A stretch of 58,102 nt of DNA from Sulfurovum sp. (GTDB lineage Bacteria > Campylobacterota > Campylobacteria > Campylobacterales > Sulfurovaceae): positions 1 through 58,102 of the forward strand of contig JALUXB010000086.1 of the NCBI GenBank assembly GCA_027019175.1, in the 5' to 3' direction. Shown here piece by piece: positions 675 through 10,582 of the stretch. Position 1 is the stretch's first letter. The number at the start of each line of letters is the position of its first letter. The position numbers and the translations under genes are program-made. The notes under the pieces were generated by a model. That model saw only the letters and a program-made list of their open reading frames with translations. It did not search any database and was not told where the DNA came from.

Positions 675-2702
675 CTATACAAACCAGTTTTTACTGTAGT
701 CATCAAGACACACTTCTATCTCACCGAAAAGCGGCACAAATTCTGTCGTACCGTCAGCTTCGACAAGCTCCAGCCGAAGGTGCAGTTTTTTCTTTTGCCT
801 ACAATAGCGCTTGTCTACGGAAAACTCCACAAAATCCGCACAGGCAAGCTGGAAGCCATCTCTGTCATAATGGGCAGAAACAGGAAGCGATACAGGGGCA
901 TCCACCTCTTCAAAGTGCAGCCGAATCTCTTTGCAGGTTTCAAGAAAATGCTTTACATCCGTATCGAGCCGGAAAAAGAGAGTTGTTTCGTTTTCCCCAT
1001 AATAGAGTACACGTACACTCCGTTTAACGCCGTCCATGGTCGAAAAGAGTCTGCCGTCATCTACCTTTCCCGCGCCAAGCCATTCATAGAAAGAGCTCTC
1101 TTTCCCATCAACCTCCACCGAAATGGGGAACTGCGGTCTGAGTCTCCCTTCCGAAGCACTCCGCTGTTTGAAAATATTCATATAGAGGTTAGGTGGCACA
1201 GACAACCCGCACACGGTATATACCGCTATCAAATGAGAGCGGAAAAGGGTATCGAATTCAAGGAGAAAATCACTGAAATGGTCATCGCCGTACCACCAGA
1301 ACCAGTCTGAACACTCTCCGGCAAGAAAATGCGCATCGACTTCCTCTTTCTTTTTTGAGGGGAGTTTGGCATAGGCCTGAGCTGTCTCTTTTTTTGTCTG
1401 ATAGAGCAATTCCCATGCCCGGTTCTTCTCTTCCGCTCCCACCCAGGTGTCGAAAGTACCTCCTATCCAGCTTCCCGGTTGGAGTGTTTCAAGCACCGTG
1501 CTTTTTGCTTCAAGCAGTGCATCAAAATGTACCATGTCTATTGATGTGTCCTGCACTATACGGGTATAGAGTTCCCGGAAGAACACCATACCGTTTTGAG
1601 GGTAGAACTCCCACGCGTTTTCACCGTCAAGGATCACAGGTACAGTAGCACCGGGTACCGTTTTGCCTATTTGTTCAAGCTGCGCCATAAAATCATCCAC
1701 TGCTTCCTTGGCAGAGAGATAACGGTAGCGGAAACCGATGCTGTCACTAAGGGGATGATCACGGAAAAGTACCATCACATCATCGTAACGGTAAGGACGG
1801 TACAGAAGGGATCGATCCGATTTTCCAAGTGTCTTGAAAAGCAGTACTTCATCCGTTGCAATCCACCCGATACCGTGTTTGCTGTAAAGATGCACACTCC
1901 GGGTATCTACAGCCCCTTCGGCAGGCCAGAACCCTGTCGGTTTCTCACCGAATGTCTCCTGAAAAAGTGTTACAGCCTCTGCAATCTGTTTTTCAGCATC
2001 CTCGACAAGTGAAACCGGCTCACGCGGCAGCACCGTTTCCGAGTTGGCAACAGCAGCCGTGTGCATATCGATCAAAAGCGGAAGAATGGGATGGTTGTAC
2101 GGGGTAGTCGACAGCGAAATAGACCTCTTTTTCAGCAGCATACCATAGAAGGGAAGAATTTGGGGAATGAATGCAATAAGCGTATCTAACAGGGTCTGTT
2201 TGTCTTCTTCGGTGTACCCTTCCCCTTTTGCAAGCATCTGCCCCACTACCGATTCGTTTTTCCGCAGATAGTTTCCGCACCAGGCAAGGAGGAAAAGGAC
2301 TTCAAAATCCCTCATCTCCTCGGCGTTATAGTCTGATTTTTTATAGAGTGCTGCATACCGAGAAAACGGTTTTACCATCGTATCATAAGGGGCTGAACGG
2401 CACACTTTTATGAGTGCGTCTTTTGTTTTTTCATCCAGTGTTTCCGTACGCTGTATCCACTGTTGCAAAAAGGTATCTTTTGTATACCCGTAGGTTTCAT
2501 ACAGTTTCAACTGTCTGATAAGCGTAGGAGTCAGGTTGAATGTAGCCTGCAGCTTTGGATATTGCGAGAGCATCCACGGCATATCGTAATAGTCTTTGAT
2601 TGCATGAAGGAATACCCATGGCATACGCTGCATCCCTGTGGCATCAGCATAGTCGGGCTGGTGCATATGCCACAGGAAAGAGAGTTTCAGCTTCACATCC
2701 AT
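675..2702 (-). CDS. GH57 family alpha-glucan hydrolase
   Basis: 675 aa glycoside hydrolase family 57 protein. GH57 motif 1 is HMHQP (12-16); TTPYNHPILPLL (199-210) is typical of the alpha-amylase/amylopullulanase branch; WPAEGAVD (259-266) carries the probable nucleophile Glu262; FRDHPLSD (313-320) carries the probable acid Asp315; and DGENAWE (359-365) is the fifth motif. There is no signal peptide, so it should act in the cytoplasm on stored glycogen or on maltodextrins left by GlgP. The exact specificity (alpha-amylase, debranching or transferase) cannot be told from sequence. The start overlaps the end of the upstream nucleotidyltransferase gene by 10 nt, so translation is probably coupled. 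Confidence 0.88.
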   Translation of the reverse strand: MDVKLKLSFLWHMHQPDYADATGMQRMPWVFLHAIKDYYDMPWMLSQYPKLQATFNLTPTLIRQLKLYETYGYTKDTFLQQWIQRTETLDEKTKDALIKVCRSAPYDTMVKPFSRYAALYKKSDYNAEEMRDFEVLFLLAWCGNYLRKNESVVGQMLAKGEGYTEEDKQTLLDTLIAFIPQILPFYGMLLKKRSISLSTTPYNHPILPLLIDMHTAAVANSETVLPREPVSLVEDAEKQIAEAVTLFQETFGEKPTGFWPAEGAVDTRSVHLYSKHGIGWIATDEVLLFKTLGKSDRSLLYRPYRYDDVMVLFRDHPLSDSIGFRYRYLSAKEAVDDFMAQLEQIGKTVPGATVPVILDGENAWEFYPQNGMVFFRELYTRIVQDTSIDMVHFDALLEAKSTVLETLQPGSWIGGTFDTWVGAEEKNRAWELLYQTKKETAQAYAKLPSKKKEEVDAHFLAGECSDWFWWYGDDHFSDFLLEFDTLFRSHLIAVYTVCGLSVPPNLYMNIFKQRSASEGRLRPQFPISVEVDGKESSFYEWLGAGKVDDGRLFSTMDGVKRSVRVLYYGENETTLFFRLDTDVKHFLETCKEIRLHFEEVDAPVSLPVSAHYDRDGFQLACADFVEFSVDKRYCRQKKKLHLRLELVEADGTTEFVPLFGEIEVCLDDYSKNWFV

Positions 2703-5209
2703 TCCCCTATGTAACCTTCATACTTATCAAGCAGAGCAGTACCCGCTTTTGTGTTCCCGGCCTGTACATATAGATGAAGCCTGTCTTCAATCTGATCGGG
2801 GATCATCAGAACCCAATCGGTTTCATTTTCCCATATTTTTACACCGTCAAGAGCAGAAGAGCGTTTTCCTTTTGCTTCCTGCATAAAACGTCTCATCATT
2901 TTCCCTTTTTGAGCCTGCGTACATTCTATGGTGCTATGCGTGTAGTAAAAGTCCTCAAATTTACGGGTCAACTCTGAAATTTTTACATTTTGTCTGGAGA
3001 GCATCTCCATGATCTTGAGACTGGCATACATTGCATCACGGTGCAGAGAGAATTCTGTAAAAGAGAAGTTACCGTCAATCGTAGCAATAAGCACATATTT
3101 CCTTAACTGCTCTGCTTTGAAGTTGGCATAGCGCCCCCGTTCAATGATGAGATTTTCAAAAGCACTGTCTGCAAGGTCAGGTGCCCAGGTGGGCAAAAAG
3201 ACACGCAGCGGTTTTTCTTTTGCTTCTTTGTTCAGCAGCGAAAGTACCACAAACAACCCTTTGATCTTGTTGAGTACCTCTCCGTCATCACTCACTATGC
3301 CAAGTTTCTGACCGTTTGGATAAAGAAGAATACCGATATTGCATGCGAGACTCTGCACTATGGCAGAAACCTCTTCGCGTGATTTTTTTTCAACATATGC
3401 CATATTTGCAAGCTTGTGATAGTCTGTGTAGCTGTTTAGAATAATATTCTCAAGCTGCAGGTCTGACATCACTTCGGGGAAGATATCTTTTGTACCGCCA
3501 TACATCAGGTCTACCGCTACTTTAAAACCGTTCGTTTTGATGATACGGTGGTCGATCGCTTTTTCAAGCGCTTCTTTGTATGTCAGGCACTCTTTGACAT
3601 GGTGGAACTGGTTCTCTTCAATTCTGCCGATTTTATTATAGTCCACTCTGCGATACTTTTGCTGGAAAAACGCTTTTTCCACCGCCTTGGCCATATCTGT
3701 GTCAATACGCAGTCCCTCTTCTGTATAAAAAGTAAATTCTACACTGGTCGGATCAAAGGTATTTTGCCGAAAATAGACACCGCCCGTCAGATGCGACTCT
3801 ATACCAAGGTTGTATCTGAGTACAGCCGGCGGCATCGCCTTGATATCTACAACATTTATGCCTCCGGAGAGCAACCCGCCAAGAAACGCACGTTTAAGCA
3901 TACGTGCACTTTTGCTGTGGTCTCTTCCTACAATGACTGTACTGCCAAGCGGCAGGTTGGATGCAAACGCTTCGGCAAGCTGGCAGGCCATTTCACATGA
4001 AATTTCCACATTGCTTTTTCCAATGACGCTGCCATTCTCAAATATGGAATTTTTATATTTGTTTCCCCAGATGATATTGTTGTTGACAATGGAAGCAGCC
4101 TCTATGCTTTTGTGCGGCCAAACTGTAACATCCTGATCGAAAACAGCCAGTTTGCCCACTTCACACCCTTCCGAGAGGATCACCCCGGCTTTTGCTGTCA
4201 CCATGTCTCCGATCCGCGTATCGTTACAGATCACACTGTTGTCAAAAACACACTGTTTACCCATGCTGACATCATGCCAAAGTACACTGTTACGCAGTTT
4301 TGTTTCGCGTCCGATCTGCACATTGTCTCCGACAGACACATTGTGCAGACGGACATTTTTGCCTACAGAAACATGTGCGCCGAGAATAACCGTATCGATG
4401 ATTTCTACTGTTTCATCGATCTGGCATCCTTCTGAAACGTAGAGTACCCCGGCAGGGTATTCAATTCTCTCTCCAGGCAGGCTTACCTGTATCTTCTCTT
4501 TGAAAATATCGGCATATACTTCACGGTAGCTGTCCGGGTTGCCCACATCACGCCAGTATCCTTTGGCATCATAAGACATCAAATCAATGCCCTCTTCCAT
4601 AAGAAGCGGGAAGAGATCTTTTGCAAAATCAAAACTGTCGTCACTTGGAATATAGTCAAGGATCTCCGGCTCGATAACATAGATACCGGTATTGATCGTA
4701 TCGCTGAATACCTCTCCCCAGCTCGGTTTTTCAAGAAACTTCTCTATTTTTCCGTTCTCATCGACAATGACAACACCAAACTGTAACGGATTATCCACCG
4801 AAGTCAGTGTAATCGTCAGTTTCGAATCGATGGCCCAGTGATGGTCGATAATCTTCTTGAAATCAAAATCGCTCACAAGATCGCCACTGACGATGATGAA
4901 TGTCGTATCCAAAAACGCTCTTGCCGCTTTTACCGCTCCGGCCGTACCAAAATCCTCTTCAGGCAGTACATATTCGATCTTGGCACCGATACTGCTTCCG
5001 TCACCAAAATGGTTTTTGATGATATCGGGTTTGAAGTAGAGCAGTACGACAATTTCTGTAATCCCGATATCGACCAGCTTTCGCATGGTATGTTCCATCA
5101 TGGGAATATTGCAAATGGGAAGCATAGGCTTGGGCAGCGAATGCGTCAGCGGCTGAATACGTGTTCCAAACCCTCCGGCCATCATGACCGCTTTGATCTT
5201 GCGAGACAT
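2693..5209 (-). CDS. Nucleotidyltransferase/left-handed beta-helix/degenerate phosphomannomutase fusion
   Basis: 838 aa with three parts. Residues about 5-240 are a sugar-1-phosphate nucleotidyltransferase: MAGGFGTRIQPLT (10-22), LPKPMLPI (25-32), GTAGAV (88-93) and SGDLVSDFD (108-116). Residues about 255-385 are hexapeptide-type repeats forming a left-handed beta-helix. Residues about 395-838 resemble phosphomannomutase. The mutase half lacks the usual catalytic TASHNP loop (GGVYFRQNTFDP at 476-487 instead) and the metal loop DGDGDR (LYPNGQ at 629-634), so it is probably inactive. Similar fusions are commonly annotated mannose-1-phosphate guanylyltransferase/phosphomannomutase. In this operon it may make or sense a glucose nucleotide instead; that is inference. 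GGGAGGGG precedes the ATG. Confidence 0.85.
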   Translation of the reverse strand: MSRKIKAVMMAGGFGTRIQPLTHSLPKPMLPICNIPMMEHTMRKLVDIGITEIVVLLYFKPDIIKNHFGDGSSIGAKIEYVLPEEDFGTAGAVKAARAFLDTTFIIVSGDLVSDFDFKKIIDHHWAIDSKLTITLTSVDNPLQFGVVIVDENGKIEKFLEKPSWGEVFSDTINTGIYVIEPEILDYIPSDDSFDFAKDLFPLLMEEGIDLMSYDAKGYWRDVGNPDSYREVYADIFKEKIQVSLPGERIEYPAGVLYVSEGCQIDETVEIIDTVILGAHVSVGKNVRLHNVSVGDNVQIGRETKLRNSVLWHDVSMGKQCVFDNSVICNDTRIGDMVTAKAGVILSEGCEVGKLAVFDQDVTVWPHKSIEAASIVNNNIIWGNKYKNSIFENGSVIGKSNVEISCEMACQLAEAFASNLPLGSTVIVGRDHSKSARMLKRAFLGGLLSGGINVVDIKAMPPAVLRYNLGIESHLTGGVYFRQNTFDPTSVEFTFYTEEGLRIDTDMAKAVEKAFFQQKYRRVDYNKIGRIEENQFHHVKECLTYKEALEKAIDHRIIKTNGFKVAVDLMYGGTKDIFPEVMSDLQLENIILNSYTDYHKLANMAYVEKKSREEVSAIVQSLACNIGILLYPNGQKLGIVSDDGEVLNKIKGLFVVLSLLNKEAKEKPLRVFLPTWAPDLADSAFENLIIERGRYANFKAEQLRKYVLIATIDGNFSFTEFSLHRDAMYASLKIMEMLSRQNVKISELTRKFEDFYYTHSTIECTQAQKGKMMRRFMQEAKGKRSSALDGVKIWENETDWVLMIPDQIEDRLHLYVQAGNTKAGTALLDKYEGYIGEWM

Positions 5210-5221
5210 TGTACCCCTCCC

Positions 5222-5503
5222 TTAAATGGAAATAATGGAATTTTCCGTACCGAAGCTGTTGCTTCTGCACGCAGTTTCCGGCTCATTCTGCCATACGTCA
5301 TCGACAATATAGCGGAACTCATACTCATTATTGGCTGGCAGAATTTTAGTAATAGAAAAACTGCCATCTTTCTTCTGCTTCATTTTTTCCCGTTTCCAGT
5401 CACTCCAAGACCCTGCAATTTCAACTGTTTCTCCCGTACCTTCAGGCACCTCAAGCGTAAAAGTAACCCATGCTTTATTTGCATTTTTTTTGATCTTGAG
5501 CAT
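5222..5503 (-). CDS. Stand-alone CBM48/isoamylase-type E-set domain protein
   Basis: 93 aa, a single beta-sandwich domain. VEIAGSWSDWKREKMK (27-42), DGSFSITKILP (46-56) and YEFRYIVDDVWQNEP (61-75) match the glycogen-binding fold found in AMPK beta subunits and at the N-terminus of branching and debranching enzymes. It has no catalytic domain and no signal peptide. It sits between pgi (12 nt upstream) and the nucleotidyltransferase fusion (12 nt downstream), with AAAAGGAG before its ATG. A role as a cytoplasmic glycogen-binding adaptor for the operon's enzymes is likely but inferred. Confidence 0.82.
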   Translation of the reverse strand: MLKIKKNANKAWVTFTLEVPEGTGETVEIAGSWSDWKREKMKQKKDGSFSITKILPANNEYEFRYIVDDVWQNEPETACRSNSFGTENSIISI

Positions 5504-5515
5504 TTTTTCTCCTTT

Positions 5516-6781
5516 TCACTGTTGTGTGAATTTTTTTACAAGAATGCGCTTGCCCAGTTCAACACCGGGCTGATTGTAGGTATCGATGTGCATCCCTATG
5601 CCGCAGGCGGATGTCAGTATTTCAAAATAGAGGATCAGTTCACCGACAGTGAATTCTGACATACTCTCCGCCTCTATCGTCGTTACGGGAATATCTTTGG
5701 CCATAAGACTCTCTTTTGTGGCATCACACTCAATGTCAATGAGTTCATTGAATGTATGCCCGTTGACATAATCGACCTTTTCAATATGTTTGAGCGAAAT
5801 ATCCGGTATGGTGAGTGCCTTGTCAAAATTGTCTATCTTGATGAACGTAACGGTTTTATCTCTGACACCGTCAATGATGAGCTGCAGAAACGAGTGCTGG
5901 TCAACCGAACCTATATGCCCTACGGGTGTCAGTCCGGTATGGTTTCCCTCTGCATCTCTTTTCCCCAGTGACTCTCCCCAAAGCTGAACAAACCATTTGG
6001 TGAAGTTTTCCAGGCAGTCACCGTAGGAAAAGAGCACCGTTACCGGGTAGTGTTCACGGTTTTCTGTCAGATAGACCGCTTTGTGCAGCAGATGGTTTTC
6101 CTTACCTTCAAAAAAACGTTTACCGAAGACCGCTGCTCCCTGAAGAACAGAGGCCACATCATATCCCGCCAGCCGCAATGGCACGACTCCGACACTGCTC
6201 AGAACGGAAAAACGTCCGCCAACATTGTCGGGTATATGAAAACGCCGTATCCCGTACGCATCGGCAAAACGATCCAGCGGTGAATTAGAGTCGGTAATCA
6301 CCATAATCCGCTTTGTGTCCTCTGCCTGTGAGAGGTCGAGGGCAAAGTGTTGGAGTGCCGCTTTAAAAATGGAAGTGGTTTCAATGGTAGTGCCCGATTT
6401 TGAAACCACAATAAAGAGTGTATTGTCCCTTTTCATACGGGCAAACTGTTTCAGGATAGATACCGGATCGGGATTTTCAAGAAAGACCATCCGTTTGGCA
6501 TGGGGATACCGGCTTTCCAGTGCTGCATGTACCGCTTTGGTTCCAAGAGAGGAGCCGCCGATGCCGATAACGGCAATAGTATTGATTTGTGCAAGAAAGC
6601 CCGATGTATCCTTCATATAGGTTTCAACCTCTGAAAGCACTGCCTGAGAATCATCCGGAAGGGTATAGTAGCCGCTTACACCTGTTTCCTTCTCTTTTTT
6701 GATAGCTTCAAATATCTCTTCTGCCCTGCTGCTTTTAGCAGTTTCCTTTTGCCCGCTAAAGCGTTCTTCATACCGTATCAT
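5516..6781 (-). CDS. pgi: Glucose-6-phosphate isomerase
   Basis: 421 aa cytoplasmic enzyme that interconverts glucose-6-P and fructose-6-P, linking glycogen breakdown to glycolysis. Family motifs are clear: GIGGSSLGTKA (72-82), the phosphate-binding VVSKSGTTIETTS, the signature segment GGRFSVLSSVG and WGESLGKRD with the catalytic Glu. The length fits the shorter bacterial isomerases (about 420-450 aa) rather than the 550 aa E. coli type. A very strong Shine-Dalgarno (GGAGGGAGGAG) precedes the ATG. It follows pgm by 23 nt in the same operon. Confidence 0.96.
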   Translation of the reverse strand: MIRYEERFSGQKETAKSSRAEEIFEAIKKEKETGVSGYYTLPDDSQAVLSEVETYMKDTSGFLAQINTIAVIGIGGSSLGTKAVHAALESRYPHAKRMVFLENPDPVSILKQFARMKRDNTLFIVVSKSGTTIETTSIFKAALQHFALDLSQAEDTKRIMVITDSNSPLDRFADAYGIRRFHIPDNVGGRFSVLSSVGVVPLRLAGYDVASVLQGAAVFGKRFFEGKENHLLHKAVYLTENREHYPVTVLFSYGDCLENFTKWFVQLWGESLGKRDAEGNHTGLTPVGHIGSVDQHSFLQLIIDGVRDKTVTFIKIDNFDKALTIPDISLKHIEKVDYVNGHTFNELIDIECDATKESLMAKDIPVTTIEAESMSEFTVGELILYFEILTSACGIGMHIDTYNQPGVELGKRILVKKFTQQ

Positions 6782-6804
6782 TTCTCCTCCCTCCTAATTA
6801 AATG

Positions 6805-8451
6805 TTATGCCAATACTGTATCAGCGATCTTTTTTGCATCTGACTGTAAAGCTTCAAGATGTGATTCTGACACAAAACTTTCCGCATATATTTTGTAGAT
6901 ATCTTCTGTACCTGATGGTCTGAGCGCAATCCAGCCATGCTGTGTCACGATTTTAAGACCTCCTATATCCGCATGGTTTCCCGGAGCCTTTGTATAGATA
7001 GATTGTATCGTTTCTCCGGCAAGCATTGTTTGACCAATATCATTCGGAGAGAGTTTTTTAAGCTGTTCTTTTTGTGATTTTGTTGCCGGCGCATCGATCC
7101 TGCCATAAAATGCCTTGCCAAATTGTGATTCGAAACCGGCATAAATATCTGACAGATCCCGTTTCTCTTTTGTTAGAATTTCGGCAGCCAGCATGTTCAG
7201 CAAAATACCGTCCTTGTCTGTCGTCCATACCGTACCGTCGAAACGGAGGAAAGATGCCCCCGCACTCTCTTCCCCGCCAAATCCGAGTGTTCCGTCCATG
7301 AGCCCTTCGGCAAACCACTTGAATCCAACGGGTACTTCATAGATCTCTTTCCCAAGCGAAGATACAACCCGATCGATCATAGAACTGGAAACCAGTGTTT
7401 TCCCTATCTTAATCTCCTCCGGCCATCTGTTTCTGGTGCGCAGAAGATACCAGATTGCTACACTCAGATAGTGATTGGGATTCATGAGCCCCCCTTTGGG
7501 TGTCACAATGCCGTGCCTGTCAGAGTCAACATCGTTGGCAAAGGCAATATCGTATGTATCTTTCATCTCGATCAAACCTGCCATTGCATAGGGAGAAGAG
7601 CAGTCCATACGGATCTTCCCGTCATGATCAAGGTGCATGAAGGAAAAGGTAGGATCTACATATGGATTGCGTATATCCATTCCAAGGCCGTACAGTTCAT
7701 TGATCTTTTCATACACGGCGATACTCGCCCCGCCAAGCGGATCGACACCGATCTTCAAATCGCTTTTACGAATGGCATCCATGTCAACAATGTCACCAAG
7801 TGCTTCGACATAGGGGGTAACATAGTCATACCCGGAGACAAAACCCGACTGCATTGCCTCCCGGATAGAACAGGAGAGTACCTCTTCGAGTCCGTCTTCA
7901 AGAATGGCATTGGCCCGTTTTTCAATCTCTCCGGTCACATCAGTATCTGCCGGTCCTCCGTTGGGCGGATTGTATTTGTAGCCGCCATCGGCCGGAGGAT
8001 TGTGCGAAGGGGTAATAACAACACCGTCACAGAGTTCTTCACCCTTTTTGTTAGCTTCGATAATGGCAAACGAGACAAGCGGTGTCGGTGTATAGCCGTC
8101 CCCTTTGGCAATCATCACCGGTACACGGTTGGCGGCAAACACTTCAATGGCACTCAGCTGTGCCGGTGTGGAAAGTGCATGGGTATCCTTGCCAATAAAG
8201 AGTGTTCCGGTAATGCCGTTGGCTTTCCTGTAATCGCAGATCGCCTGACTGATTGCCTTGACGTGGGCTTCGTTGAAGCTTCGCGTATAGGCGCTTCCCC
8301 GGTGACCGGAAGTACCGAAAGCGACACGTTCCTCTTTTTTTGTCATGTGCGGCCTACGTGTGTAATAGGCGCTGATCAGCTTGGGAATATTTTCAAGCAT
8401 ACTTTTCGGGACTTTTTTGCCGGCCAGTGGATGGATGTGTGTGGATGCCAT
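6805..8451 (-). CDS. pgm: Phosphoglucomutase (alpha-D-glucose-specific)
   Basis: 548 aa, almost exactly the length of E. coli Pgm (546). It converts glucose-1-P from GlgP into glucose-6-P. AFGTSGHRGS (44-53) is the N-terminal motif, TPSHNPP (147-153) holds the phosphorylated Ser149, NDVDSDRHG is the metal-binding loop, and GGEESAG is the sugar-binding loop. Unlike the mutase half of the downstream fusion protein, all catalytic motifs are intact. Its ATG lies one base after the glgP stop, and its AAGGAG lies inside the end of glgP. Confidence 0.97.
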   Translation of the reverse strand: MASTHIHPLAGKKVPKSMLENIPKLISAYYTRRPHMTKKEERVAFGTSGHRGSAYTRSFNEAHVKAISQAICDYRKANGITGTLFIGKDTHALSTPAQLSAIEVFAANRVPVMIAKGDGYTPTPLVSFAIIEANKKGEELCDGVVITPSHNPPADGGYKYNPPNGGPADTDVTGEIEKRANAILEDGLEEVLSCSIREAMQSGFVSGYDYVTPYVEALGDIVDMDAIRKSDLKIGVDPLGGASIAVYEKINELYGLGMDIRNPYVDPTFSFMHLDHDGKIRMDCSSPYAMAGLIEMKDTYDIAFANDVDSDRHGIVTPKGGLMNPNHYLSVAIWYLLRTRNRWPEEIKIGKTLVSSSMIDRVVSSLGKEIYEVPVGFKWFAEGLMDGTLGFGGEESAGASFLRFDGTVWTTDKDGILLNMLAAEILTKEKRDLSDIYAGFESQFGKAFYGRIDAPATKSQKEQLKKLSPNDIGQTMLAGETIQSIYTKAPGNHADIGGLKIVTQHGWIALRPSGTEDIYKIYAESFVSESHLEALQSDAKKIADTVLA

Positions 8452-8452
8452 T

Positions 8453-10582
8453 TTAATTCTCCTTTAATGTATGACTGATAGGTACGTAAAATTTTTCCAG
8501 ATAGTCTTTCATCATGCGTCTCGCACTGAATTGAGGCGAAATGCTGATGATCGCTCTTTTCATTTTTTTCGCCCACCCTTTGGGGTACCCTTCCTTGCTT
8601 TCGGTATAGAAAAGAGGAATGATCTCGTTTTCGAGGGTATCATAGATAGATGCAGCATCACGGGCATCGTCAGATGTTTCCGTACCAATCACCCATCCGT
8701 TACCGCCGTCATAGCCTTCCGGCCACCAGCCGTCCATGGCAGAAAAATGCAGCGTGCCGTTCAGACTGGCTTTCATGCCGCTCGTACCACAGGCTTCCAT
8801 TGGAATCTGCGGATTGTTCAGCCATACATCGACACCATGTACCAGATATTTGGCAACCTCTTCCCCATAGTCTTCAATAAATGCAATACGTCCCTTGAAT
8901 TTTGGGTTCTGTGCTACCTTGAAAATATTTTGTATCATTTTCTTTCCAGGATTGTCAGAGGGGTGTGCTTTTCCCGTAAAGATGATCTGTACAGGCCGGT
9001 TGCTGTTCGTGACAATCTTTTCAAGCCTGTCAAGATCATGCAGTATGAGGTTGGGACGTTTGTAGCTTGTCATACGCCGTGCAAATCCAATGGTCAGAAC
9101 ATCCGGATCGAGCATCACCCCCTCCGCCATGGCAACAAGCGGATCGATCCCCTCGTTCGACCACTTTTGTCTCACCCGTTCCCGGATAAAATTCACCAAA
9201 CGTACTTTACTGTCATAATGTATCTGCCAAATTTTAAGCGGATCGATCTCTTCCACTCTGTTCCAGACCGCTTTTTCATCTTCAAGGTGCTGCCACTGCT
9301 CTCCAAGTACTTTGTCATAGGTCTGCATCAGTACATCATTCAGCCAGGTGGGAATGTGCACACCGTTTGTCACATAGTCGATGGGAACCTTCTTTTCATC
9401 ATCCATAGCAAAAACATCTTTCCATATCTGTCTGGTCACTTCCGAATGTTTTTTGCTGACGGCATTACGCTGGCGGCACAGCTTCAAACCAAGTACAGTC
9501 ATGTTGAAACCGTCATTGGGAGCGTCAGGATTGATGCCAAACTGAAAGAATTGATCTTTACTCAGACCGAGCCGCTGCCAGTAGTCCCTGAAGTAGTTGC
9601 TCATCATATCAAAACCATAAACATCCGTTGCCGCCTGAAGCGGTGTATGTGTCGTAAATACAGAGGTCGCTTTTACTTTTTCGATCGCCTCTTCGAGACT
9701 CAGGTTCTCATCTTCAATGAAACTCCGTATCCGTTCAAAGAGCGCAAAAGCCGGATGCCCTTCGTTAAGGTGTAAAATGGAGTACTTGATGCCGAGTGTC
9801 TCCAATACTCTATATCCGCCGATCCCAAGAACGATCTGCTGTCTGAGACGCTGGTTCATATCGGGTACATAAAGGTGTGAACTGATACCCCTGTCCCACG
9901 GATCGTTCTGCTCCACATCTGTATCGAGCAGGTAGAGTGTCACCCTGCCTACATTGATCTTCCATACCGATGTATAGACCGGCGGATCTATGAAGGGAAC
10001 CTGTACCGTCAGGTGATCGCCGTTTTGATCCAGTACCCGTTCAATGGGTGCACTGTCTTTGTCGATGGTCTCATTGGTACCGTTCTGCCATCCGTCACTG
10101 CCGATCACCTGTCTAACATATCCCTGTGCATACATAAAACCTATCCCCACCATGGGAAGTCCCATATCACTGGACTCTTTCAAAATGTCACCGGCAAGAA
10201 AGCCCAGTCCGCCCGAGTAGATCGGTACAGAGTGATGCAGTCCGTACTCTGCACAAAAGTAGGCAATGGGCAGAGGCTCCTCTTTGGCATAAACCCGGCT
10301 GTCCTGCATATAGTCTCTGAAGAGTGCATGCACATACTGATACTCTTTCATGAACGTTTCATTCTTAATCAGGGCATCGAGCTCGTGCTGTGAAAGCATA
10401 TTCAGCATTTTAATGGGGTTGTGGCTGCTCGCTTTCCAAAGATAGGGATCGATGAGTCTGAAAAGATTTTTGCCCCGTGGGTTCCATGTCCACCAGAGGT
10501 TGAGGGAGATATCACTTAAAAATTCAATCTCTTTGGGAAGTTTCGGTATGACAATATTTTTGGAGGGATCGGTAGTCAGCAT
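8453..10582 (-). CDS. glgP: Alpha-glucan (glycogen) phosphorylase
   Basis: 709 aa GT35 phosphorylase that releases glucose-1-P from alpha-1,4-glucans using phosphate and pyridoxal phosphate. The N-terminus (FLSDISLNLWWTWNP) is that of the short alpha-glucan phosphorylases (TIGR02094 type) rather than the 800-830 aa GlgP/MalP type. CAEYGLHHSVPIYSGGLGFLAGD segments in two halves (110-132), HLNEGHPAFALFE and GTSGMKASLNG (599-609) are conserved; Lys604 is the expected PLP lysine. It is the first gene of the glycogen operon, with AAAGGATAG before its ATG and a TATAAT box about 70 nt upstream. Confidence 0.95.
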   Translation of the reverse strand: MLTTDPSKNIVIPKLPKEIEFLSDISLNLWWTWNPRGKNLFRLIDPYLWKASSHNPIKMLNMLSQHELDALIKNETFMKEYQYVHALFRDYMQDSRVYAKEEPLPIAYFCAEYGLHHSVPIYSGGLGFLAGDILKESSDMGLPMVGIGFMYAQGYVRQVIGSDGWQNGTNETIDKDSAPIERVLDQNGDHLTVQVPFIDPPVYTSVWKINVGRVTLYLLDTDVEQNDPWDRGISSHLYVPDMNQRLRQQIVLGIGGYRVLETLGIKYSILHLNEGHPAFALFERIRSFIEDENLSLEEAIEKVKATSVFTTHTPLQAATDVYGFDMMSNYFRDYWQRLGLSKDQFFQFGINPDAPNDGFNMTVLGLKLCRQRNAVSKKHSEVTRQIWKDVFAMDDEKKVPIDYVTNGVHIPTWLNDVLMQTYDKVLGEQWQHLEDEKAVWNRVEEIDPLKIWQIHYDSKVRLVNFIRERVRQKWSNEGIDPLVAMAEGVMLDPDVLTIGFARRMTSYKRPNLILHDLDRLEKIVTNSNRPVQIIFTGKAHPSDNPGKKMIQNIFKVAQNPKFKGRIAFIEDYGEEVAKYLVHGVDVWLNNPQIPMEACGTSGMKASLNGTLHFSAMDGWWPEGYDGGNGWVIGTETSDDARDAASIYDTLENEIIPLFYTESKEGYPKGWAKKMKRAIISISPQFSARRMMKDYLEKFYVPISHTLKEN

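Follow-up and report, generated by a model that had tools for sequence, protein, structure and literature searches.

The fusion gene and its gene cluster

The window analyzed here, a stretch of 58,102 nucleotides from the genome of a Sulfurovum sp., a sulfur-oxidizing relative of Campylobacter (contig JALUXB010000086.1), carries part of a glycogen gene cluster whose features are collected in Table 1. Within this cluster the initial annotation had placed a nucleotidyltransferase fused to a degenerate phosphomutase. The gene proved to be a real open reading frame of 838 amino acids, lying on the minus strand, which had not been specified, and its product runs from a nucleotidyltransferase domain through a left-handed beta-helix to a pseudo-phosphoglucomutase half. 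An active pgm had also been described three genes upstream. This is borne out when the 93-aa frame next to the fusion is counted as a gene, and the catalytic loops of Pgm are intact.

Table 1. Genes of the cluster and features of the fusion protein, by position in the window
Feature	Position	Strand	Evidence
Second GH57 gene, N-terminal part, cut by contig end	1..666	minus	tblastn of G145 homologue
GH57 protein, start overlaps fusion end by 10 bases	675..2702	minus	PF03065
Fusion gene: nucleotidyltransferase + left-handed beta-helix + pseudo-phosphoglucomutase, 838 aa	2693..5209	minus	ORF, Pfam, AF2
Pseudo-mutase half, residues 388-838, complete fold	2696..4048	minus	Z 41.1 to 9du5; dN/dS
Degenerate metal loop LYPNGQ, residues 629-634	3308..3325	minus	alignment with GlmM and Pgm; counts in 118 members
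Degenerate phosphoserine loop GGVYFRQNTFDP, residues 476-487	3749..3784	minus	alignment with GlmM and Pgm; counts in 118 members
Left-handed beta-helix, residues 256-353	4151..4444	minus	PF25084 (LbH); strands in AF2 model
Nucleotidyltransferase domain, residues 6-235, motifs complete	4505..5194	minus	PF00483 NTP_transferase, 180 bits; motif counts
Residue 83, Pro (Glu in solved GDP-mannose pyrophosphorylases)	4961..4963	minus	alignments
93-aa stand-alone glycogen-binding module, between pgi and fusion	5222..5503	minus	AMPK1_CBM PF16561, 52.7 bits
Glucose-6-phosphate isomerase (pgi)	5516..6781	minus	NF003016, 565.9 vs 487
Phosphoglucomutase (pgm), catalytic loops intact	6805..8451	minus	TIGR01132, 825.9 vs 778.05; TPSHNP, DVDSDR, GEES, RPSGT
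Alpha-glucan phosphorylase (DUF3417 type)	8453..10582	minus	TIGR02094, 807.8 vs 191.7; PF11897

A further contig of the same genome (C23) opens with the C-terminal part of a gene of the second GH57 type, as found by tblastn of the G145 homologue with the two pieces compared separately. It continues with genes for a GalT-like protein, GlgA, a ROK kinase, another GlgA and GlgB. Judging by gene order in relatives, the window contig and C23 likely adjoin. Both GlgAs score above the cut-off of the ADP-glucose-type model (504.6 and 553.1 vs 328.45). The GalT-like protein (G000:C23:1114-2118, L074) falls under the galT_1 cut-off (89.3 vs 102.1); its nearest solved structures are 1z84 and 2h39 (157 and 153 bits), which we take to be Arabidopsis At5g18200, followed by the GalT 6k5z (72 bits) and 1hxq (58 bits). 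Passages of two papers describe At5g18200 as phosphorolyzing ADP-glucose (PMC11066809, PMC6329318). Being nearest to this plant ADP-glucose phosphorylase, the cluster protein might recycle ADP-glucose.

The arrangement recurs in the phylum. In all 19 of the other Campylobacterota clusters examined the fusion adjoins a GH57 gene, and a gene for a GalT-like protein, GlgA or GlgB lies within the stretch read in 16 of them. The 93-aa glycogen-binding module was found by tblastn in 11 of the 19, and in 10 of the 120 listed loci of the pattern scan described below, some of these matches being partial.

The Pfam profiles for the mutase half are weak. PGM_PMM_I matches residues 389-519 with 56 bits and PGM_PMM_II matches residues 544-643 with 31.2 bits, barely above its cut-off of 29.3; PGM_PMM_III stays under its cut-off and mutase domain IV gave no match. 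In an AF2 model built from 52 chosen alignment rows (mean pLDDT 91) the mutase fold is nevertheless complete, and 441 of its residues can be superposed on Thermococcus PGM 9du5 (rmsd 2.9). The front half of the protein aligns with GMPPB 7d72 over 349 residues (Z 37.8, rmsd 2.8). The pTM of the model is 0.61, so the arrangement of the domains relative to one another is uncertain.

An intact transferase and a degenerate mutase

When the fusion is aligned with the GlmM and Pgm of its own genome, the two stretches that the initial annotation had singled out, which occupy exactly the residues it gave, fall at the phosphoserine and metal loops, and both are degenerate as it had claimed. In place of SHNP the window fusion has NTFD, with Asn at the phosphoserine position. 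The other two active-site loops are degraded too, the sugar loop reading ATIDGN (GEQSGH in GlmM) and the phosphate loop IPDQIE (RYSGTE in GlmM), so that no RxSGT is present. Across 118 fusion members from many phyla, the window included, we found SHNP, the His after the serine position, the three metal Asp together and SGT at the aligned phosphate-loop place in none. The phosphate-loop Arg is kept in 2 of the 118 and Ser at the phosphoserine position in 69. Loop loss is a family-wide trait, and it argues for a mutase half that has no mutase activity.

Comparison of the two loops across Campylobacterota homologues, a check that the initial annotation had proposed, finds them degenerate throughout. 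The first metal Asp is replaced by Tyr or Phe in 42 of the 44 rows and the third by Gln in 42 of 44, and conserved residues occupy the former loops (Q634 in 42/44, F717 and D725 in 44/44 each). Judged from these alignments, the Campylobacterota fusions are the furthest in loop degradation. One locus (L025, G036:C1) has an internal TAA in the fusion gene, which is either a sequencing error or a pseudogene, and was left out of all alignments; alignment A1 holds 24 of 27 rows, with L022, L025 and L030 left out.

Between close relatives the mutase half evolves under constraint. In five close pairs its dN/dS was 0.026-0.053, vs 0.020-0.043 for the nucleotidyltransferase, and in three further pairs its dS was saturated. 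Selection thus maintains this half, and we reject the idea that it is simply decaying. A dead mutase half, first seen in the window gene, thus extends to 118 members in many phyla, with purifying selection in the pairs tested.

The nucleotidyltransferase half carries the motifs of the PF00483 sugar nucleotidyltransferases (GGxGxR, the catalytic Lys, EKP and Asp), and their completeness, originally noted for the window, holds across the family. EKP, D110, N173 and D221 are present in all 118 members, K27 in 116 and GGxG[TS]R in 115, the remainder being gaps. The closest curated and the closest solved relatives of this half are GDP-mannose enzymes. Its best NCBIfam match is man1P_GTase_Rv (NF052502), at 268.3 bits against a cut-off of 440. 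The GlgC model TIGR02091 gives 132.7 bits in the genome search and 135.3 for the protein, against a cut-off of 424.9. The structure 8x7s is about 29-30% identical to the fusion and ranks second when the N-terminal domain is compared by itself.

A FastTree tree of 115 of the 118 rows (L022, L030 and L039 left out) splits the fusions into two clades. Clade A holds those of Campylobacterota, Aquificota, Deferribacterota, Desulfuromonadia, WOR-3 and Hydrothermota; the actinobacterial relatives sit in clade B, apart from the clade of the window fusion. Residue 83 lies five positions before GTAG. In three different GDP-mannose enzymes of known structure (7whr, 7x8j and 7d72) this residue is Glu; a fourth alignment, 8yre_D, seems to repeat the plant protein of 7x8j and is left out of this count. 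The window fusion has Pro here, as do all 53 clade A rows, while all 29 actinobacterial rows have Glu and the other 36 clade B rows vary (A 16, P 8, E 7, L 3, S 1, V 1). GlgC has a Pro near the matching position, in a motif comparison with one GlgC row left out. Residue 83 may read the base, guanine in the GDP-mannose enzymes.

Co-occurrence with glycogen synthesis genes

Among 200 Campylobacterota genomes, 27 carry the full-length fusion and 27 carry GlgA, and the two sets are identical (agreement 200/200). In six families and one genus (f1, f4, f6, f7, f8 and f10; g12) there are genomes with both genes, the others having neither. GlgC passed the TIGR02091 cut-off in none of the 200. Sub-threshold matches to that model at 1e-30 comprised 26 of the 27 fusions and a stand-alone protein of 390-393 aa in each of the genomes G177 and G196. 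The absence of GlgC across the 200 genomes was scored with this one model; the broader PF00483 scan covered the window genome.

Two control genomes bear on how this absence should be read. Bacillus subtilis, which we take to have glgC, gave no match in the GlgC search at 1e-30, which means that a divergent GlgC could have gone unnoticed. Bacteroides ihuae gave a GlgA match and no GlgC match, so that lack of GlgC does not by itself prove a substitute.

GalU is present in 196 of the 200 Campylobacterota genomes and in 26 of the 27 fusion carriers, and UDP-glucose therefore does not need the fusion. Besides the fusion, the PF00483 proteins of the window genome are a separate ManC (GMP_PMI, well over its cut-off), RmlA, GalU, MurU and two GlmU-like frames, with no GlgC; five of the six other proteins were checked, each scoring over the cut-off of a curated model. 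With these assigned, the fusion is the sole PF00483 protein without an assignment in a genome that has two ADP-glucose-type GlgAs. The two GlmU genes (G000:C79 and G000:C40; L006, L007) are very similar and perhaps reflect a strain mixture (contamination 4.75). The co-occurrence shows that the fusion belongs to the glycogen module; it does not show which reaction the fusion carries out.

Beyond the phylum, a pattern scan returned at least 120 fusion loci from many phyla, of which 33 of the 120 listed were incomplete and 87 were used. Glycogen genes (Pgm not counted) neighbor the fusion in 24 of the 26 listed clade A loci vs 2 of the 61 listed clade B loci. We searched 33 of 34 genomes with clade A-type loci (L143 left out; eight loci outside the tree were placed by taxon or context) and found GlgA in 30 and GlgC in 2. 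Coordinates read by eye put GlgA no more than 10 kb from the fusion in 18 of the 33. GlgA was not seen in G214, G216 and G222, all of them Campylobacterota metagenome-assembled genomes (MAGs). The Geobacteraceae G202 and G205, both among the 33, have GlgC as well as the fusion; in each the fusion is near GlgA and GlgC is on another contig.

In clade B we searched the genomes of 50 of the 61 listed loci. GlgA occurs in 27 of these 50, never closer than 10 kb to the fusion (coordinates again read by eye), and GlgC is over its cut-off in one, with an apparent GlgC split in two frames in G282. Presence of GlgA differs with residue 83, at 23 of 29 without Glu83 vs 4 of 21 with it (Fisher 4e-5, kinship ignored). 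The link with glycogen may thus reach past clade A, but it is weak in the fusions outside that clade. That every member of the family is a glycogen enzyme is rejected by the neighbors of the listed clade B loci and by the 14 genomes searched of the actinobacterial group, in which GlgA gave no match.

Of 168 Desulfuromonadia genomes, 116 have GlgC over its cut-off. A further match turned up in 99 of these 116, and in at least 14 of them GlgC is accompanied by a frame as long as a fusion (837-971 aa), which may belong to either clade. These 14 or more genomes reject a strict either/or of fusion and GlgC. The tie of the fusion to glycogen remains in G202 and G205; strict replacement does not.

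Fusion copies also turned up in a plasmid scan, in Sulfuricurvum kujiense, Streptomyces and Nonomuraea. The copy on S. kujiense plasmid pSULKU01 (L113, 12001-14538) has phospholipase genes next to it and efflux genes close by, with no glycogen gene in the 26 kb read. A Sulfuricurvum MAG (L186) has a fusion-like fragment at 4050-4307, just upstream of a full copy at 4664-7156. On the Streptomyces plasmid the fusion (L114, 3756-6004) comes after genes for an AGE-family epimerase and a STAS protein, a neighborhood that suggests another role for the fusion in actinobacteria. A scan of viral contigs returned 19 loci with partial nucleotidyltransferase matches only (143 to 239 query residues).

Proposed function and alternatives

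Fusions of this kind are usually annotated as mannose enzymes, an assignment that is probably wrong in the Campylobacterota lineage. We propose that the fusion is a glucose-1-phosphate nucleotidyltransferase dedicated to glycogen synthesis, most probably an ADP-glucose pyrophosphorylase doing the work of GlgC, and that the mutase half has been kept, most likely to regulate or organize the transferase; we put the probability of this reading at about 0.6. Glucose-1-phosphate rather than mannose-1-phosphate, already predicted in the initial annotation, is the favored substrate because of the glycogen cluster, the complete agreement of fusion and GlgA in the Campylobacterota sample, the lack of any GlgC over its cut-off there and the separate ManC. 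ATP is favored as the nucleotide, on the basis of context. The proposal is also in line with the neighboring glycogen-binding frame, with GlgA in 30 of the 33 genomes with clade A-type loci and with the lack at residue 83 of the Glu seen in GDP-mannose enzymes. In the proposed pathway Pgm would supply glucose-1-phosphate, the N-terminal half of the fusion would couple it to the nucleotide, the GlgAs would polymerize and GlgB would branch the product. The C-terminal mutase fold would regulate or organize the transferase, for example by binding a hexose phosphate or by holding an oligomer together.

The comparison with known enzymes places the fusion between several families. It resembles GlgC in its nucleotidyltransferase and beta-helix, its place in glycogen synthesis, the YWRDVG motif and the Pro near residue 83, and differs from it in scoring under the TIGR02091 cut-off, in its extra mutase half and in having no W[YF]xGT[AS]DA stretch. 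GDP-mannose pyrophosphorylases of the GMPPB, VTC1 and Rv3264c type are closest to the N-terminal half by sequence and among the closest by fold; the fusion departs from them in falling under the NF052502 cut-off, in the Pro that replaces Glu before PLGTAG, in its mutase half and in its glycogen context. The tlr0611 UTP--glucose-1-phosphate uridylyltransferase (8x7s), which we take to be CugP-like, has the nucleotidyltransferase, the beta-helix and the INTGIY motif in common with the fusion at about 29% identity. With its 401 aa, however, it has no mutase half, and its loop before GSAG is different. From the phosphoglucomutase/phosphomannomutase superfamily the fusion retains the complete fold and has lost the catalytic loops.

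As the nearest relatives are mannose enzymes, the fusion could instead be a GDP-mannose pyrophosphorylase with a dead mutase half. GMPPB and VTC1 are among the nearest by sequence and fold, man1P_GTase_Rv is the best NCBIfam match and the actinobacterial relatives still have the E-x-x-P-L-G motif seen in GDP-mannose enzymes. The match of 268 bits is nevertheless far under the cut-off of that model, the window genome already has a ManC well over its own, and the fusion tracks GlgA exactly in the Campylobacterota sample. Experimental work in Streptomyces coelicolor points the same way. There, a passage of one paper describes SCO1388 as an apparent bifunctional GMP and ManB enzyme, a domain composition that likens it to the fusion, and reports that its disruption gave no sign of lost GDP-mannose synthesis, the protein probably contributing little to GMP activity (PMC5982138). 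Any kinship with the fusion is by the paper's description; SCO1388 was tested as a mannose enzyme, and the actinobacterial relatives of the fusion form part of the other clade. Taken together, we regard a GDP-mannose function as improbable. Somewhat less so, though still unlikely, is a glycogen-dedicated enzyme under its own control that makes UDP-glucose, or another NDP-glucose, as the donor used by the GlgAs. The uridylyltransferase 8x7s is about as close to the fusion as the GDP-mannose enzymes are, and a GlgA-bearing control genome without a GlgC match exists. Against a UDP-glucose role, 26 of the 27 fusion genomes already have GalU, both GlgAs belong to the ADP-glucose type and the cluster encodes a GalT-like protein that resembles an ADP-glucose phosphorylase.

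For the mutase half, the most serious competitor to regulation is a purely structural or docking role, in which the domain senses nothing and serves an oligomer or a contact with Pgm or with the glycogen-binding protein; we give this only a little less than an even chance. Beta-helix nucleotidyltransferases form oligomers, and with all four active-site loops of the window fusion degraded, retained ligand binding is not assured. On the other side, the newly conserved Q634, F717 and D725 in the former loops could mean a ligand site. A putative sugar-phosphate sensor is plausible, with a scaffold or docking function an equally good fit. That the half still catalyzes by an altered chemistry is very improbable: Ser persists at the phosphoserine position in over half of the members (69/118) and the phosphate-loop Arg in two, but the window fusion has Asn at the serine position, and the His, the full set of metal Asp and SGT are absent from every member.

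In 2014, a passage of PMC3958643 drew attention to a vent-specific cluster of glycogen genes in Epsilonproteobacteria. Among the titles and abstract openings found in the open-access literature, none gave the fusion a role in glycogen, which is no proof of absence.

Returning to the proposed ADP-glucose function, a wider reading can be put forward more tentatively, at clearly less than even odds. The fusions might constitute a second, so far unrecognized family of ADP-glucose pyrophosphorylases, in which a transferase of GDP-mannose type has changed both base and sugar and a dead phosphoglucomutase acts as a built-in sensor of the hexose phosphates at the enzyme's own branch point. This family would feed glycogen synthesis with no need of GlgC in Campylobacterota, Aquificota, Deferribacterota, WOR-3, Hydrothermota and part of Desulfuromonadia. 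If the proposed ADP-glucose function holds, the fusion would supply the route to ADP-glucose in the sampled GlgA-bearing Campylobacterota, in which no GlgC was found, and the mannose annotation would be corrected in this lineage. The fusion would also be a case of an enzyme fold that lost its catalysis and became a component of another enzyme acting at the same branch point of metabolism.
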